DNA of 64,000 nucleotides, taken from positions 4,069,855 to 4,133,854 of the forward strand of contig NC_134030.1 in assembly GCF_964204645.1 (NCBI RefSeq), in the 5' to 3' direction. The notes beneath the pieces are model-generated. The model was given only the letters and a program-made list of their open reading frames with translations, made no database searches and was not told the origin of the DNA. The DNA is from Tubulanus polymorphus. Its lineage: Eukaryota > Nemertea > Palaeonemertea > Tubulaniformes > Tubulanidae. Made by a program: the position numbers and the translations under genes. Positions 22,994 to 35,447 of the stretch are shown piece after piece; position 1 is the stretch's first letter, and every line of letters begins with the position of its first letter.

Positions 22994-25900
22994 TTAGATG
23001 TAGCTTCTCTTCTCCTCTTCATCGGGGTCGACAATTTTCCTTTTACGACACGACTGATATCCGAGCAGATCCAACACTTCGAACACCGTCAGAACACTGG
23101 CTCCGATAAATAAACCCATGGCACCACCTATATCACCTGTAAGCACGACACAAAGACATCAAACAATAATTGGCTTTTGTTTCGATCTCGGTCGTTAACT
23201 AATGATCGTGTTTTTGCTACTCACAAAGTAACGCGAATATATCGTAAGCGATCTGTTGTTCGACCAATTCGTAGTTCAGTTTGCGATAAAATATGTCGAT
23301 TTGAAGGAAGTTCTCTCTGAAATATAAATATACGTATATACTCATGTATATTTATCTATTCGTAGCAATGTTACAAGTAGAAAATAAAAAAAGAGTCAAA
23401 GAGCAAAAAATTACTCTACTTTTACTATTTACTTGGGGTGAGAAACATAGACATGTGCGTGATTATTTGAGGGGTTATTCCAATTATGTGTACGTAGATG
23501 CGTGATGAAGGTCACATCATGTAACGACTTCAATATATTATACCTGCATTAGTTTACGGACTAGGTCCGATGTTTATGTGCTGAATGAAGTTTGAATTCG
23601 AATCGAATTTGAAACGTATTACGAACGATGCATATGATGTGTTGGTCTGATCGGCTGAATTTGTTGAAAAACAACCGCGCTTGCTTTGGTTTTCGATTAA
23701 CATACAAGCATTCATAAACTCGTGGCCCAATCCGCCAATAATTTACCTGTAAAACTTAGTACCGATCTTATTATCGGCTAGATATTGTCTCTGCTGACTC
23801 ATGAGACGCTGCAGGGATTCAGTTAATTCTATGTCTAGACCCGATACAGGATCGACCAAGTTGAATCCCGATTCGACCATTGCGGCGATGACACCCTTCT
23901 TGAACTCTGTATAATTGGTTTGCGCCCAACTGATGTTGCGACTGACCAGAGTATCGCTGTGTAGCCGGTAATAGGGCTGACTGTCCTCATCAGTCAGTAT
24001 GAACTTCCAGATATCGAGGGATTGGCGCCGCATTTTCACCCAATTGTCCTATCATTAAAGAAACTTGACCATTAAATGTTCGTGTTAAATTTTAACACGA
24101 CGGGCATTACCAGTGAAAAGTTGAAACATCCACAATTCAAACAACACCAATTGATACCCTTTACGTGCTACTCGCTTTTCCAGGGTTTTCCATGGGCGTG
24201 TATATAAGAGTGAAGGGACGAGGGATTTGGACTATTTAATGCTTACATGTTTTTTCCTAATTTCCTATTGCACAATAATATTTTTACTCTGGTTGCTGTG
24301 TTTTCTAACTATTATCATAGAAGTGTAAGTGATTACATGATATCATGTATCCACAATCTTTGTAACAAACGGATTATGCAAAATAAACTACAACTATGAT
24401 TCGCCAACTTCTTTTTTCGCGATGCTTCTGAATACTGAAAGTCGTCGTACGGTTTCGATTACCTTCAATGACTGCGTTCTCGTGCGCACCTCGTCAAAGT
24501 ACGTGCTGATACCAGCGAGGATGTCTTCCATTCGTGGCGCAGTCGTCTGTCTAGAAATACTCGTCCATCCGATAGTTTGATTCGCCAAATAATCGTGCAA
24601 CAAATTACTAGTTTCCAGGAATTGCGGCCACAGATTTGTGATCATCCATTTGACGCCCTTACGAAGACTGTTTAGATTTATTTTCATTTCTGAGTAGGTT
24701 TCGGAGACCGAAGATTTCAAGTCGTCGAATCGTTCGATGCGATCGGCGAGCACGCGTTCCGGGTACGAATACACGTCCGACAACATGAAATCGCGATCTC
24801 GGTAAAAACCGCGAATCGCCGACAAAAATTCGTCGATGATCGCGCGCATTTTGAACGACGATTGAAACCCTTTATCGTAAACATGTCTCAGATAATCGGT
24901 CATATTATCGCAAACTTTGTCGATACGTTTCAAGTGATCGGCGGCGCTTTGAATGTACCTTTTCACATTCGGCGTTCGCGTAACTGCGTCTTGAAGAAGT
25001 TGTATAGGCGCGATGATTCGAGCGTCTAATTCAGTGAAACTCTTGTACGGATAGTTGAATATAGCTTGACCGCGGTTGTAAGACGCAAACGCCTGCGTAC
25101 AGTTCTCCAGGGCTAACAGCGCTAGGCCCTTACGCGCTTTGATCGCTTCGAACATGGTCAAATACAGCATTTGACGTTGGATGGGATCGTCGTTAACGGC
25201 GAAGACTAAACGGTTCAAATACTGTTCGTAAGTATGAACGAATGTGAAATATCCACGCGGTACTTCACTCCAGGTCGCTTCGTCCATAGCCATAACACCG
25301 CGATAGAAATTCTTCAGGCAGACATGTTGCTGTAACGACGAAACTCGTTTCTTCTTCCTCCACGCGGATATCAGTTCATCGAACGTATCATCGACGTGAT
25401 CTGTGTATTTGATGACGGTGCTGTTTATCTTTACCAGGAGTTCTTCTACTTCCCGCGCTGCTCGCAGTATCCGGGCGATATTTTCCGAATTCTCGTTGAA
25501 GTATTTGTTCACAACAGCCGCCTTAGTGTCTCGAGCTTTTATGTAGCGTTCAAGAAGTGCCGAACTGTTGAGCATTGACTTAACCGTGTCAACGTCGAGA
25601 TAAGACGTGGTCGAGTAGGAAAAATTCGGTTCGTATATCGTGCTGGTACATGGAAGATCACATTTACACATATGCGCCATATATCGCCGATAATACACTG
25701 TTGAGAACAAACGTTTCCGATAATACGACAGGTTACAAAATGTAGGGGATGCAAAAACACTTTAAAGAGGTCATCCATGCATAATTATAGCCTATATATT
25801 TCTAGCGTCCGATACCTACTTTTATTTTCCTTTATGCAACTTTCTTGTGATATGGTGCAAACTGGTGGATTACCTACAAAATGAGCGATTAATGTTCTCG

Positions 25901-28900
25901 TCAGGCTCTATATATAGCTTTAACAACCGTCTTACTCGTTATCAATTTCATTTGAACAAAGTACCATTTTTAGAAGGCATGTACGCTAATCGGCAACCAC
26001 ACATGGTCTCATAAAAGTTTGTTTTGCACGACATTCGGCACCCGACTTGCGAGTATGTTTCGTAATAGTGAGTTGGATTGCCTTCTGTGCAATTTCCGTG
26101 CGGTTTTGGCAAGTTCTTCATCTGCAAACGAACAAACAACTGTTTGCATAAAAATAAACGACATTTCTAGATATTTTCAAAAAAACGTGCATAACGTATA
26201 TCAGAACATGTTTTCCAAATAGATATCGCCTGACAACTGCCATTAATTAGCCCTTTATACAACGGCCATTAAAATCAATTTGTTGCTTCATATGCAAAAA
26301 AATGATTCGGCGCCATCGGGCTGTTTTATTTCAAAGCTTATAACTTGGATTTGTATTCGACATTGTAGAAGTTTGATAAACTTAGAAGCTCGTCTATGTG
26401 CTATGCTCCATCAGTCTTACCACGGTAACTTTGATTCCAGCATACGTATGCGTTCCAGTTGATAGAGCTTGTCCCAAGTCGTGCACGAGTGGAACTTCGT
26501 TATGTTCGTACAGTAACATTTTGATTCCTGCCGAATCATGGGGTCCTCTCATGTATTCGTATTGCTCCACGTTCATTATCAGTCGTAGACCGTTCTCTGA
26601 ACCTAGAAAACGAAATGAAGATAAAACATACGATAGTTCACAGTCATTAATAAGTTTTTATTAATAGGGCTTTTGGAATCCAGGGCAAGATAGACTCAGA
26701 GAGGGACAGGGCCGGATCCAACGATCTCAAGGGTTTTCCAAAAATATAAGGGCACTCAATAGTATGGGCTTTCGTATCCATGCCTCGCAAGCGCGAAGCC
26801 ATTGAAGGGGTCTGGGTTGGGGAACCTCCACCAGAAAATCTTTGGATAATTTTGGGCCATTCTGGTGGTTTTTGGAGGCATAAAAGCTGATTTGAAAAAC
26901 ATGACATTGATGCTAAGTTCTAAACCAAGACTGAGAAGAAAAGGACTTGCTTTCAAGTGATAGGATAATGAAGTTTAACATTTCACTGATATGACACAAA
27001 AAATAACTTGTAATACATGTAATGCAAAATAGAAACAAATGAATTGACATCTTTATCAACTTTCAAGTAGATTTTTTTAAAAAGGGTACGGGCAAAGCTC
27101 GACATTGTGTTCGCACCCCTCGAAGCCCCCTGGATCCGCTACTGGGTCCAATATGGGACTGGCTAAGCAACTTACCAGTTTCTGAGGATCTGATTGGAGG
27201 TTTCGCACCATGATTGAACGCATAACAGGGGCCAAAATCCGTGAAAATCGGAACGAAATCATCCGAATCGCAGCGACCGTCATTCCAACGACACCTTCAA
27301 CAAAATAAGCATCGTAATTATAAACCGAACAATCGCTTTATACAAAATCGATTCGAAAATCATTCGAAAATCGCTTTGCAGATTTTACTGGTAACATAAT
27401 TGCATGAATTAGAATTTTGTGCGAATGTACTTTAACACTTCGCCATTTTTAACGTCGGTATTCCTTTTTCCAACTTAATGGTGCTAATAGTGTTGTACTT
27501 TTATTGTAGCGATATAAACCTGTTAATAGTGATGTTTGTCTTGAATAATTGAGTCGCAATTCTAGTGGATCTGCGACGTATTGAAGCTTAAAAGCGATAC
27601 GACTGGTTCTAGTTATCCATAGCGATAGTTGAAAAATAACTGCTGATAACGATGTTGTATTTATTTTATAAATTCGAATTCAAACAAATTGTTCTACTTG
27701 ATATCTGCTGGTAGATTTCACCCGTCACGAACGCTTCAAATGTCTACCTCGCTAATTAACCAGATATTTTCGACGACCCTTGTCTCGAGTGGGAGGTTGA
27801 CATAACAAAATATGACAACGCGAGGGCAGTGCATGAGGGCGAAATCAGAAAAACACTTTTTTTCTCATGTCCACCGGACGCTCCCGTACGAAGGCGATTA
27901 TTTTTCAGGCACTGATATATTTCTATTACGATTTATTTCTCATTGCGGAATTATTTTCACTTGCGAACATATTTTGATGGAATTTATTTTAATTATGTGT
28001 CAAGAAAATATTTCATGGCCCTTATCAGTCACTATACGTCTTACAATTCATGAAAGAATAGAGTTGTGAATCATGTTTATTCATTTATTCGTGGAAATAT
28101 GAATCGGCATTTTGACAATTCGATGCAGAAATAAATTCAAATCTTACCATACAATCATGTCCTCTTTTCTATGCGATGTTTTAGCGAGTAGTTCTTGTGA
28201 GTTGAGATTTTCAGCGTTGTACATCGTTAGATTCAACTTCCAGCCGTCTCCGCCCTCTCTGTTGTGCATATCGTCCAGTAATGGATAGAGTCCCAATCGA
28301 GTAGCTTCAGTTACTCTTCAAATAGATCCATACATTCATCGTAGGAATTAAAGTAATAATAATAGTAATAGTAATTTAGTAAAAGATGATAATAATTCAT
28401 TTTCATTTTACAACTAAAGCATGTTCCGATGTCGCGATCTCAGAAATTTAAGAGAATGCTCAGAACACAATGAGAACAATTTCTGGGCATGATATATGAT
28501 TTGAAAAGAGATTGTAGCAGGTTTCCCCCGTATATATATCATATTGTATATGAGCGTACGTAGTATGTATATAGACAAACACTTCCATGTAGAAACTGTT
28601 GTAATCCGACTAACCTAAACCAGTTCATGTTACAAAGAACCACTGACGGAAAAGTGAGAGTTTCATTAAAGTTGATCTCCACGTTGACGGTGACTGGATA
28701 ACCGTAATAATAGATGATTCGATCTACAATCTGCCTGGTCATCACTGCAGTGCATAAACTAATGACGAAAAACCAGGCTAATCTGAAACAAATGAACAAC
28801 GAATAAAGCTACGTAACGTAGTCATTTATGAATTGCTTAAGTAGTCTAGAAGTTCTGTCAATCAGAAATTACGATAGAATTTTTAATTACAGTCGAATTG

Positions 28901-31032
28901 GTCAGTTTTTCATTTAATTGTTTGTGGCATGAATAATTTAACTCGAAAGTTACATCAAGTTGGCAATTCTGTTTGAAAGAAATAACGATTATCGATGATA
29001 TAAAGCTATACGCCTGAACCATTTGAAAAATGTACAAGAGATTCGAAACTACTCGACGTAGCAATGCGTGTTTGTTGTATGTGTAATAAAAATGAAGTAG
29101 AATCCGAATTACGTTTCCTTTGTGAATGCAACGCGTATCATGATTTAAGAAAAGACCTATACAACAAAACTGAAGATGTACTAACTGTTGATATAACATC
29201 CCTGTCAAGTACCGAGGTAGTAACTCAAATTCTTTCAAATTGTAAAATAGTTAAATATGTTGGCATTATGTTGAAAGGATGTCCTTACGACGTAACGGTA
29301 ACATGCCATGAATATGTTATATTTGTATGAAAGATTGTGTCTTGTAAGCCTTTTATAGCCTGGCTTTACTTGTAGAGATGACAATTTAATAAACTATATA
29401 TATACCGATTTCCCACAGCTATAGATAATTCGATGCTAACCTGATTTTGTTCCGTAGAAAAAAAATATATATGATTTACGCGGAACGACATACATTTCCA
29501 ATATCCAACTTTTTAAGAAAAAAACGGCTTCTTTCCTGCTCTATTTATGCATGCATACTTAACGCATATTAGATTAACAATATGATATGCTTACAAAGTC
29601 CATTTACAAAAATTAATTACCGAAATGCAAACTACTGAGATCTATTACAGATAACAAAGTACCTTTTATTGCGCAATTTTCTGATATATCCACAATTTTT
29701 CGGTAGCATATAATTGAATTCAGAAAAAGCTCAGTGACCATTTAGGAACTTTTGTACAACAGTCGCAAGGGAATTAAGTACAGAAACAATTGAGTTATTC
29801 GCTGCCTTTCGTAAATCATAGTTGATTAGTAAAAACCACCGAATTGCGAATATTCCGTGTAACGATGATGCATTTCTTCATGTTTAATAAATCACTTTTT
29901 TTCGGACATAAAAAAGCGTAAAAAGCAATATGACCAAGGTCACACCGAGCATAATCTTATTTTCAGAACAAATCGGGTGATAAAACGACCTCGGAAATTA
30001 AGTTAGAAATAAGAGCGACAGAAAAATCGAACCAGGTTTTCCAAAGACTAAACAGCACATTCTGATCAAGATGAACATATTCAGTATATTTGAAACCCGA
30101 CTTTGAAAAATAGCATTGGCGTCATTGATGACTTAGTTAGGATTGCCTTCGAGGCAAATCAAATAATGACTTCATCGCACACGATGATCAGGGCCCTTGT
30201 GTGTAATATCGTGACCATTACATATGAATTTACTTTAAACGCACTGTTAACGGTCGTAAAATATACGTTTCATCAACTTTGAAAGGAATTATTATCTATT
30301 TTCCCGGATGCGAAATGATTTCGCCACGCGACATAAAATTTCGGGTCATAAACCTAACGGAAGCGTCCCGAGGACATAATTACTTCATAAAATCATAAAA
30401 TTAAATAAAAATTCGATTTTTAATTTTATGATTTTATCAATCGGCAAAAAAATTTAAAAAACAGTATTATGTCCCCAGGACGCTTCCGTATAAACCCGAC
30501 TTAGAAACATTATACTTTCGTTTTTATTCTATAATATTAAAAATCAATTTGATTCAAAACATAAATATTCATGTACATTTTCATTCAAGCGAAGAAAGCC
30601 GTTCATTTAATCAACAGTAGGTTTTCGATATGGGCGAAGATCATGCGTGTCATCAACCTGGTGTCATACAGGACAAAACCAAGGGCCCATTTGCACAGTC
30701 GTGAGTCCAAAAGTGGTCTTGACTGGTCTCGCTATAAAACGAAGATGGTCTAAGACTGATCGTGCTATTCTGTGTCCATGATATCTAAATATATTTACGT
30801 ACCTTCTCAGAACGACCGAATCTTCGGCACTGACGTATCTGATACCATGAAAGGTCGTATTCTGTGTAAAATCGTAGAATGCATCCCTCCACGTCACCGG
30901 TTTTATTGTCAATTTTGGTTTCGGATAATGATGATCTCGATCGTTATGCACGTTCGGTTTCAAGTGGTTACTATCGTCTAAGACAGTCAAGTGGTATTTC
31001 GTATTCTCTGCTGCGTCGTCCTTTTTGGTCAT
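22994..31032 (-). CDS. DEG/ENaC (amiloride-sensitive) sodium channel with a large extra domain before TM2
   Basis: Ten exons on the minus strand: 31032-30803, 28782-28615, 28315-28148, 27294-27176, 26596-26421, 26121-25965, 25697-24463, 24048-23747, 23316-23225, 23136-22994. All junction phases agree and the total is 2790 bases (929 residues). Seen in order: the N-terminal HG gating motif (TTFHGIRY), TM1 (LAWFFVISLC), the post-TM1 motif YPVTVNVEINFNETLTFPSV, FTDFGPCYAFN, GLRLIMN, NEVPLV, PGTH-like TGTHTYAGIK, CRMSC, CGCRLAYMP, CKCDLPC, then pre-TM2 FYRKLNYE and TM2 with DIGGAMGLFIGAS (GAS selectivity filter). Such trimeric channels pass Na+ at the plasma membrane. Oddity: about 475 helical residues (about 375-850) are inserted between CKCDLPC and the pre-TM2 strand. 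The donor at 24,463 (aag|gtaatc) is the least certain junction; reading through would stop at 24,394. Confidence 0.92.
26680..27165. mobile_element. Decayed repeat fragments in ENaC introns
   Basis: Around 26,700-26,870 and 27,085-27,160 the text 'ggatccgg.cctg', 'tggcttcgcgcttgcgaggc' (minus strand) and 'ccccctggatccgcta' matches a style of degenerate transposon debris common in marine invertebrates. No ORF survives. The family was not identified. Confidence 0.35.
29040..29335 (+). mobile_element. LINE-type retroelement 3'-end remnant (zinc-knuckle tail of the ORF)
   Basis: The frame starting at 29,064 reads MRVCCMCNKNEVESELRFLC, then C.AYHDLRKDLY. The spacing CxxCxxxx(E)xExRFLxxC with a following LR..LY is the usual C-terminal tail of reverse transcriptase ORFs of non-LTR elements. 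It lies in the first intron of the ENaC-type gene, in antisense. No reverse transcriptase core is seen upstream, so the copy is 5'-truncated. It ends before 'aatttaataaacta', a plausible element 3' end. Confidence 0.6.
30357..30489. mobile_element. MITE-like element with terminal inverted repeats
   Basis: The left end 'acggaagcgtcccgaggaca' and the right end 'tgtccccaggacgcttccgt' are reverse complements with one or two mismatches, and the AT-rich interior is palindromic too ('cataaaatcataaaatta' against 'taattttatgattttat'). It sits in ENaC intron 1. Flanking 'ataaacc' occurs on both sides, but the exact target-site duplication is uncertain. Confidence 0.7.
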
Positions 31033-32453: not shown

Positions 32454-35447
32454 ATGTTACACCGACTCGCGATACTTGTAATTTGCGTTCTCTTTCCCGA
32501 AAACCGATGTAAGTCTATTCTTTATTATTTGTTTGATTTTATCTGAATTTGAATGATATTTAGAAATTGTTTTAGCGTGGTTTACGGAGAATGAGGTTTG
32601 TTTTGACGGACTCGGTTGTTTCAACAATGAACATCCATTCGACAATGCGGCGCTTGTTTTACCAGATGAGCCATCAGAGGTTGGTACAGTGTTCTATCTG
32701 TTCACTCGTCACTCAGCGTCGCCACAACTACTCGACTATACGCGTCAGGAAACACTGGAACAGTCGTTTTTTGATCCGTCGACACCGACGAAATTCATCA
32801 TTCACGGTTTCAATAACGATGGTAAAACGAGTTGGGTGACAGAGATAGTCATAGCACTTCTCAATTTGGTAAGTAACGACAAACGATTTTAATAGGGAAG
32901 TTTCCAGTTACCAGACGCCATTTTGAGGCTCTCCCGCAGGTCCCGCATTGTTGGACAGATTTATTCGGCCAATGCATTCGTCCTCCAAGAGATGATGAGG
33001 GAATGTGTTGGCTCTCATAGTACAGTAACATCGCTGCTACAGGCCCGATGGTACAGACACATAGTACACTATAGTCTGGACGGTCTCAAATGAACCGGTT
33101 GATAGCAATTACCCATTCCCTGAACAGGTGGCAATGAATTGTTTCAATGTCCATAAAAAGGTATAATTCTCAGCAAGCGGAGAACACTGTCAATCATCGG
33201 TATATTGACATCAATTGCTATGATCTTCGTGATTATTTTCACAGGAACCCATGAACGTCGTTGTCGTAGATTGGGGCCAAGGTGCGGCTTTTCCTCACTA
33301 CGTACAAGCTGTCGCAAACAGCCGCTTGGTGGCGAGACAAACACGCGTTTTATTGGACCAGATGCGATCGTTAGGAGCCCGAATGAGCGAGGTGCATCTT
33401 ATTGGCCACAGCATCGGGGCGCACGTAGCTGGTTACATAGGCGCAGCGTTAAATGCATCAATTGGTAGAATTTCAGGTAAATCTGAATTTATCAACGACA
33501 GTCGACTTCAAATTAGCTATAGACATCTAACGCGTATAAACGTATTTTGTAAAGGTCTTGATTTGGCGGACCCCCTTTACGGTGATCACGATAAGGCAGT
33601 TCGATTAGATGCGTCAGATGCCAAATTTGTCGACGTAATACACACGAACGCCCGACCGTTTCTGGAAGGAGGTTACGGTGATTACGAGGTGTCTGGTCAC
33701 GTAGACTTCTACGTAAATGGCGGAATAGTACAACCAGGATGCGAAGGTCTTGTTGAAACGGTGAAGAACTTAGCTAAAGGTTTAGTGTCAGGTAACTTTT
33801 AAAAATCTAAATGATGCAATTCATCTACAATCAGTTATTCGTCTATTGCGAAATTAGGTAAATGCTTCCTTTTTCCAATTTCCAGCCGCTACAAAAATAC
33901 TGTCGTGTAGCCATAGTAGATCACATGAAATATTCATTGAGTCTATCTATACGAAATGTCCATTCATCGCTTTTCCATGTAAAGATATGGTAAGTACGCG
34001 AGTGTGTTCCTGTTATTACACTGACAACCATCAAAACATTATACTTGTGTATAGTAATTTTGTTCATTTATTAAGGCATATCAACGGAAATCGTAAAACG
34101 CTCAAAGGCAATGAGCATTGGATTTTCAAAATCGTTCGGGAGGAGGGTTCCAAATTCAATTCCAACAAAATCAAAAGCGAACCCATCCCGGCCCCACATA
34201 AACATTCGCTACGGGCTTGACGTAGCCCAATATAATATAACTCTCTCGCATTGTCAATATGTATATCATACTGACGTGTTTCTTACTTTAGGATACTTTT
34301 ATATGCGGACGATGTATGAGATGTCCAGAAGAAGGATGCATTCGTATGGGTTATCATTTGCACAAGCCTCCGATACGCGGGAAATTCTATATTGACACGA
34401 ATAAAAGTCCACCGTATTGTGGTAAGCAGAATCTATCAAAACCTAAAACATGAAAACATGATGAAATATAAGAAAAAGTTTTAAAAAATTTAATTATCAA
34501 GTTTTATGGACTGTTTCACTTTTGTCTTGTTCATCTTCTGTCTTCGTTTAGGATACCATCACAGCCTCAAACTATTACCTATGAACGACGATGCTAAAGG
34601 TTACATCAATGCTCGCTTGTACGGAAGCGACTCCACGTCGGTAGAGAAAAAGATCTTCAAGTATGTCTGATGACAAATACTTATACAAATCTACGTAAAC
34701 ATTTGATACGATATTACGAGAGTGTTCACATAAACAACCCACAATTATTGATGATTAACAGTTCCAATTGGATTACAGCGTCAAAGCCGGCGCAACTGAA
34801 CCAGAGAAAAGTCTTCTACTGACTTACACCATAGACTATAAAACGATTCGTTTTACAGCCCATACTTACACTAAGATGCTAGTAAAATCCTCTCAAATGA
34901 CGTATAATTTCGCTTGAAATGTGGGAGATTTACAACGTCGTGGTTCTGGATCGCCGCCATCTTGTGCTACAATCAAGAATGCGACTGTCCAAATTGATCA
35001 CGCATTGCAGGAGCGTTCTGATAAGGACACTGACATTGGGAACATGTTTGAAGCAGAACTTGTAGGCCTACATAATACATCGGTAATTCATCGCCATTCT
35101 TGGTTTCAGTGAAGATTATGAGTACGAAGCGGGTAAATACGCAGCCTGGGTGGTTGTTGTGAGGAATGATATCGGACATCCCAAAAGCATCGAACTAACT
35201 TATGTCAAACGGGAAGGTATATTTTGGGGAAGCGGAGCTGATCAGTTAGAAATAGAATCACTCATCCTAAAATCTGGCGTCACAGGAAACGAGTAAATAT
35301 CTGTTTATTATATTTTCAAGATAATGAGTCAATTTTGTAAGTAATATTTTGATTTTCTTACTTTTTAGGCATTATTATTGCGGTGATACACTGGTGCTAA
35401 ATTCAGGCGAACCTAGAATCATAAAACTCTCAACAAATTCATGTTGA
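32454..35447 (+). CDS. Pancreatic-type triacylglycerol lipase with C-terminal PLAT domain (secreted)
   Basis: Nine exons: 32454-32508, 32576-32868, 33245-33476, 33555-33791, 33886-33989, 34292-34421, 34552-34660, 35110-35292, 35369-35447; total 1422 bases, 473 residues, close to vertebrate pancreatic lipase. The start gives a signal peptide (MLHRLAILVICVLF). Then come the family marks VCFDGLGCF, TKFIIHGF, VVVVDW, the nucleophile in GHSIGAH (Ser about 172), GLDLADPLYG (Asp about 196), DAKFVDVIHTNARPF, GHVDFYVNGG, CSHSRS (His about 282) and a Cys-rich lid-side segment ICGRCMRCPEEGC. All three catalytic residues are present, so activity on lipid esters is expected. The last three exons match the PLAT/LH2 beta-sandwich. 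It is transcribed away from the ENaC-type gene. Confidence 0.93.

Follow-up and report, generated by a model that had tools for sequence, protein, structure and literature searches.

A large helix-rich insert at the predicted knuckle of a DEG/ENaC channel and of its paralogues in the genome of Tubulanus polymorphus

Protons, peptides, sodium or force are the stimuli of DEG/ENaC channels, whose ectodomain is fairly constant and comprises a few hundred residues. The locus described here raises the question of what several hundred additional residues are doing in the ectodomain of one such channel. The gene is located on the minus strand of a 64,000-nucleotide stretch of Tubulanus polymorphus DNA (below, the window, whose numbering is used throughout). 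A first-pass annotation had noticed there ca. 475 extra residues between the CxCxxPC segment and the second transmembrane segment of a DEG/ENaC protein.

The spliced model of the gene runs from position 31032 to 22994 and contains 11 coding exons with AG/GT borders and compatible phases; its reading frame of 2850 bases, including the stop codon, encodes 949 residues. The initial count was ten phase-consistent exons and 2790 bases; the agreement of phases holds, and both totals are replaced by those given here. The coordinates proposed for the two exons that carry the insert (25697-24463 and 24048-23747) turned out to be exact, with AG/GT borders and matching phases. The ATG at the start of exon 1 was chosen within the model. 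The features of the gene are as follows.

30803..31032, minus strand: exon 1, cytosolic N terminus with the HG gating motif TTFHGIRY (spliced model, GT donor)
28615..28782, minus strand: exon 2, TM1 and start of the ectodomain, FPSVVLCNMN
28148..28315, minus strand: exon 3, finger region (phase agrees with paralogues)
27176..27294, minus strand: exon 4, finger/palm, CRWNDGRC...GPCYAFN
26421..26602, minus strand: exon 5, beta-ball/palm, GLRLIMNVEQYEY
25965..26121, minus strand: exon 6, thumb, Cys-rich
25820..25873, minus strand: exon 7, thumb, short, NPPVCTISQESCIKENK
24463..25697, minus strand: exon 8, CKCDLPC, strand beta10 and the first ca. 386 residues of the insert (25620-24463), by comparison with paralogous exons
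24049..24462, minus strand: intron within the insert, 414 bases, GT...AG, with an in-frame TAG at 24394
23747..24048, minus strand: exon 9, end of the insert (ca. 24048-23791) and knuckle helix segment QQRQYLADNKIGTKFYR
23225..23316, minus strand: exon 10, palm strand and pre-TM2 region, ENFLQIDIFYRKLNYELVEQ
22994..23136, minus strand: exon 11, TM2, GAS selectivity filter DIGGAMGLFIGAS and C terminus to the TAA

Head to head with the channel gene, on the plus strand at 32557-33802, are exons of a lipase gene (Pfam Lipase, PF00151, E 1.3e-41 and 1.4e-10).

The window gene is predicted to encode a DEG/ENaC channel, as originally proposed. The protein matches Pfam ASC with an E-value of 1.3e-90 and 305 bits (cut-off 23.6), and its best match among PDB sequences by phmmer is ASIC1 (E 3e-59). 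Only two membrane-like hydrophobic segments are present, at residues 72-96 (TM1) and 894-929 (TM2), and the HG motif (TTFHGI), CKCDLPC and the GAS filter are all intact in the spliced protein. The product would be a pore-forming DEG/ENaC subunit of an ASIC-related clade with a Na+-selective GAS pore. The phmmer alignment revealed that ASIC proton-sensing residues are not kept: chicken E239 falls in a gap, D346 is replaced by K, D350 by M and the wrist His by V. Since these acidic-pocket and wrist residues are replaced or absent, ASIC-type proton gating of the window channel appears unlikely. In mouse ASIC1, His73 and Lys211 have been named as determinants of proton gating (PMC10507113).

The ASIC1 match is split in two, query residues 54-385 being aligned with 21-375 of the chicken protein and residues 858-931 with 386-459. 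The 472 window residues in between occupy a space of ca. 10 residues in ASIC1, which bears out the early estimate of their number. Counted between motifs, 504 residues separate CKCDLPC (370-376) from FYRKLNYE, which begins at residue 881. On the N-terminal side of the insert lies palm strand beta10 (CKCDLPC...IYEP), and on its C-terminal side are the knuckle helix segment and the strand that leads to TM2. Beta10 is located at the three-fold axis, and its far end connects to the knuckle (PMC9052164). Because the insert follows this strand and precedes the knuckle helix, it would be found at the top of the ectodomain and not next to the gating wrist, where it had first been put. Its site is predicted to be the knuckle, at the apex of the ectodomain and beside the corner that binds FMRFamide in related channels. 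The breakpoint is uncertain by some 40 residues, since the Pfam ASC profile reaches ca. 45 residues further into the block (to query 430) and both ends of the insert look like knuckle segment; placement between the two knuckle helices is a possible alternative.

A scan for hydrophobic segments detected no transmembrane-like stretch in any insert examined, so additional transmembrane segments inside the insert were rejected and the block is predicted from topology to be extracellular, in agreement with the first-pass annotation. Its helix-rich character was likewise upheld: the hydrophobic moment at the helix angle exceeds that of shuffled sequences with z of 2.3-7.6 in twelve inserts, versus 0.3 in the core ectodomain of the window protein. 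The inserts are poor in Pro, Gly and Cys. AlphaFold, run on exon 8 alone as a single sequence, returned helix nearly throughout with a pLDDT of 38, and this model was not used for claims about the fold. Sequence and profile searches of Pfam and PDB with the insert retrieved only scattered sub-threshold or coiled-coil-type matches, the best in PDB being the Nsp1 coiled coil (E 8.5e-5); by these searches, the insert has no convincing relative in either collection. Pattern searches gave 47 matches in viruses and 74 in prokaryotes, none of which was confirmed.

Is this a single odd gene, as it had first appeared? It is not: a relative of the insert occupies the same site in at least 26 other DEG/ENaC genes of this genome, which makes at least 27 with the window gene, and all insert-bearing genes counted adjoin Pfam ASC matches on the same strand. 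When the genome was searched with the window insert, matches were found in other DEG/ENaC genes, with E-values of 2e-58 and 1e-26, which rules out a chance frame. Four paralogues are referred to below by letter.

C6:543-545 kb: paralogue A, from the own-genome search with the window insert
C1:963-964 kb: paralogue B, from the same search
C1:26.796 Mb: paralogue C, from the same search
C1:28.684 Mb: paralogue D, from a repeat search with the inserts of A-C

Three further loci (L021, L023 and L024), chosen for DEG/ENaC matches with long open frames, also contain the block. A search with an insert from this set retrieved a tandem cluster of nine genes and about a dozen dispersed copies. The cluster occupies C6:7.107-7.175 Mb on both strands (L008, L021, L023, L035-L043), and its inserts are ca. 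60-82% identical to each other. The deep groups of inserts are related by profile comparison with an E-value of 9.7e-6 and a probability of 82.5%, over the first ca. 220 aligned columns only; homology of the C-terminal half between groups is suggested by position and splice site. Two inserts located on different contigs, L058 (C4:8.83 Mb) and L060 (C6:9.87 Mb), are 98% identical with dS of 0.04, which suggests a very recent interchromosomal duplication or an assembly duplicate.

In most paralogues, the entire insert and CxCxxPC are contained in one open exon of ca. 480 codons, and the open frames of paralogue inserts are mostly ca. 400-500 codons long; some copies have an intron within the insert, as does the window gene. 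Paralogues A, B, C and D lack the 414-base intron and have the insert in one exon, and paralogue B is contiguous across the window exon 8/9 junction (TRSQSTDDNWNKL versus TRTQSLK/DNWVKM). The simplest reading is that this intron was gained later. One intron of paralogue A contains a minisatellite (L014:3991-4665); its unit translates approximately as SDNLLSVHCT / QTICCLYTAP in the three forward frames.

Insert-bearing genes whose junction or donor was checked have a phase-2 splice site following F-[ILVY]-[RK] at the end of the insert exon; the junction residue is different in a few members of the C6 cluster. Three DEG/ENaC genes of this genome lack the insert; their corresponding exon continues for ca. 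40 residues beyond the PC motif and ends, ahead of the palm strand, at the same phase-2 site. Since insert-less channels have the same splice site, the simplest reading would be that the block arose by growth inside an ancestral exon. Exon shuffling is disfavoured as its origin, because the downstream splice site and phase are shared with insert-less genes.

A tree was built from 20 rows of channel core, without the insert except for a few flanking residues; several rows were fragmentary and long-branched. The ten insert-bearing rows are separated from the rest by a branch with support of 85/88, not starred, and a single origin of the insert is likely. In this tree, the window gene does not group with ASIC and is placed in the separate insert group. 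An insert-less gene, L003 (C6:5.898-5.901 Mb), pairs with chicken ASIC1 with support of 95/91 and is probably the true ASIC of Tubulanus polymorphus.

The window gene and the paralogue nearest to it are 57% identical in the core and 27% in the insert. Among close paralogues, dN/dS over the insert is 0.27-0.59, and the insert is therefore constrained; by these estimates it is under purifying selection, yet evolves much faster than the pore-bearing core. The window insert contains seven N-glycosylation sequons, and eight are counted from CKCDLPC onward, versus 3.6 expected from shuffling. This excess is suggestive in the window gene and weak or absent in most paralogues, and general sequon enrichment of the insert was accordingly dropped. 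As judged from these comparisons, the insert is a real, conserved and rapidly evolving part of the channel.

What, then, might it do? The reading that we prefer, and to which we give close to an even chance, is that the knuckle has grown into an apical helical recognition module that gates the GAS pore and has been diversified for different ligands. The structure of the gene, the position of the insert, its paralogues and their grouping on the core tree, the helical periodicity, the selection on the coding sequence and the intact pore motifs are observed; we infer the fold, the geometry of the crown, ligand sensing and coupling to the pore as follows. The connection between beta10 and beta11, i.e., the apical knuckle, would have expanded from tens of residues to an autonomous all-helical domain of ca. 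430-480 residues. Each subunit would contribute one such domain, and the three would make up a crown above the ectodomain, close to the three-fold axis. Once a peptide or environmental ligand is bound, the crown would pack differently on the knuckle and against the finger of the adjacent subunit; this shift would travel by way of beta10, beta11 and the palm to TM2, so that the GAS pore is opened or modulated. The gene family would have diversified the crown module for recognition of different ligands.

The site lends itself to this role. In FaNaC, finger helices together with knuckle alpha6 make up the peptide (FMRFamide) pocket (PMC11026163). The knuckles converge on the extracellular side into an upper vestibule, and the knuckle of ENaC has been implicated in Na+ self-inhibition (PMC6827283). 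A domain grown at this site would be in a good position to detect a ligand and to bias gating. The rapid divergence of the insert within an expanded family would be easier to explain by recognition than by a fixed structural role. Tandem copies and a high rate of change would also be in keeping with host-parasite pressure, self/non-self recognition or relaxed constraint, and the fact that modulation of ENaC at its knuckle requires no ligand domain speaks against a ligand module.

Other explanations must be weighed against this one. The most basic is that two genes, or an unspliced frame, have been joined in the gene model. It is true that the model is built from genomic sequence and that the exon 8 frame continues into the TAG at 24394, which the first-pass annotation had considered as a possible gene end; the TAG is indeed in frame, but it lies in the intron that the four paralogues lack. 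Moreover, the paralogues hold CxCxxPC and the entire block in a single open exon with matching flanking splice phases, and relatives of the insert are found in other DEG/ENaC genes. The artefact, already rejected by the first-pass annotation, is thus very improbable indeed. A largely passive bulk, i.e., an expansion that was tolerated in a variable loop of the knuckle, spread by gene duplication and has no dedicated function, would be in keeping with the fast evolution of the insert and with the knuckle insertions, predicted to be loops, of most placozoan TadNaCs (PMC6827283). The dN/dS values, the retention of long open frames, the helical periodicity conserved across inserts and their similar length in very diverged copies all argue against it, and we regard it as quite improbable.

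Two further alternatives assign the insert a function other than ligand sensing. The crown could act as a stalk with a hold on extracellular matrix, cuticle or an adjacent cell, force being transmitted through beta10 and the palm to open the pore. A long, Cys-poor block of amphipathic helices with the sequons of the window insert is compatible with such a tether, and N-glycans of ENaC have been proposed as matrix tethers (PMC7958617). Conservation would be expected of a structural tether, however, whereas the insert diverges much faster than the core; Pfam and PDB searches found no matrix-binding domain in it, and most paralogues do not share a clear sequon excess. We consider the tether unlikely, though a serious contender. 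Somewhat less probable still is a module for assembly or auto-inhibition, which would set the pairing of subunits in trimers or keep the channel shut and would sense nothing. At least 27 co-resident paralogues would require pairing rules, the knuckles of three subunits converge at the top, and changes in the ENaC knuckle alter Na+ self-inhibition (PMC6827283, PMC9052164); yet the insert is far larger than pairing needs in other DEG/ENaCs, and none of the measurements made here favours this role.

If the preferred reading, an apical recognition module, is taken further, these DEG/ENaC subunits, at least 27 in number, would constitute an undescribed class of receptor channels with an apical helical domain of ca. 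480 residues without known relatives, diversified for ligands in the manner of chemoreceptors; we put this forward as a possibility, on balance doubtful. The insert clade may be a large unrecognised receptor family in the Tubulanus polymorphus lineage. A large clade with a knuckle domain as big as the remaining ectodomain would be a natural experiment on the coupling of apex and pore, and paralogues of the same animal that lack the insert at the same site would make deletion and swap experiments straightforward.

A search of the literature, covering sources other than subscription papers and preprints, found no description of a channel of this kind. The pickpocket (PPK) channels of Drosophila are a comparably expanded DEG/ENaC family, with 31 members (PMC12304301), but represent a separate insect radiation, and no comparable insert is mentioned in the abstracts surveyed. 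FaNaC shares the DEG/ENaC fold, and its ligand pocket lies beside the insertion point of the window channel; the available part of that source reports no comparable insert (PMC11026163), and FaNaC is not the closest relative, with 57-94 bits versus 204 for ASIC1 in the PDB sequence search. The knuckle insertions of placozoan TadNaC are described only as predicted loops (PMC6827283), whereas that of the window channel comprises several hundred helical residues. With chicken and human ASIC1, the window channel shares the whole channel core, the HG motif, CxCxxPC and the GAS filter, and differs in having the 472-residue block where ASIC has ca. 10 residues. An extra module related to gating is known in the DEG/ENaC ectodomain, namely the GRIP domain of ENaC, which is located in the finger and cleaved by proteases. 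In contrast to GRIP, the block described here is placed at the knuckle and is helical.
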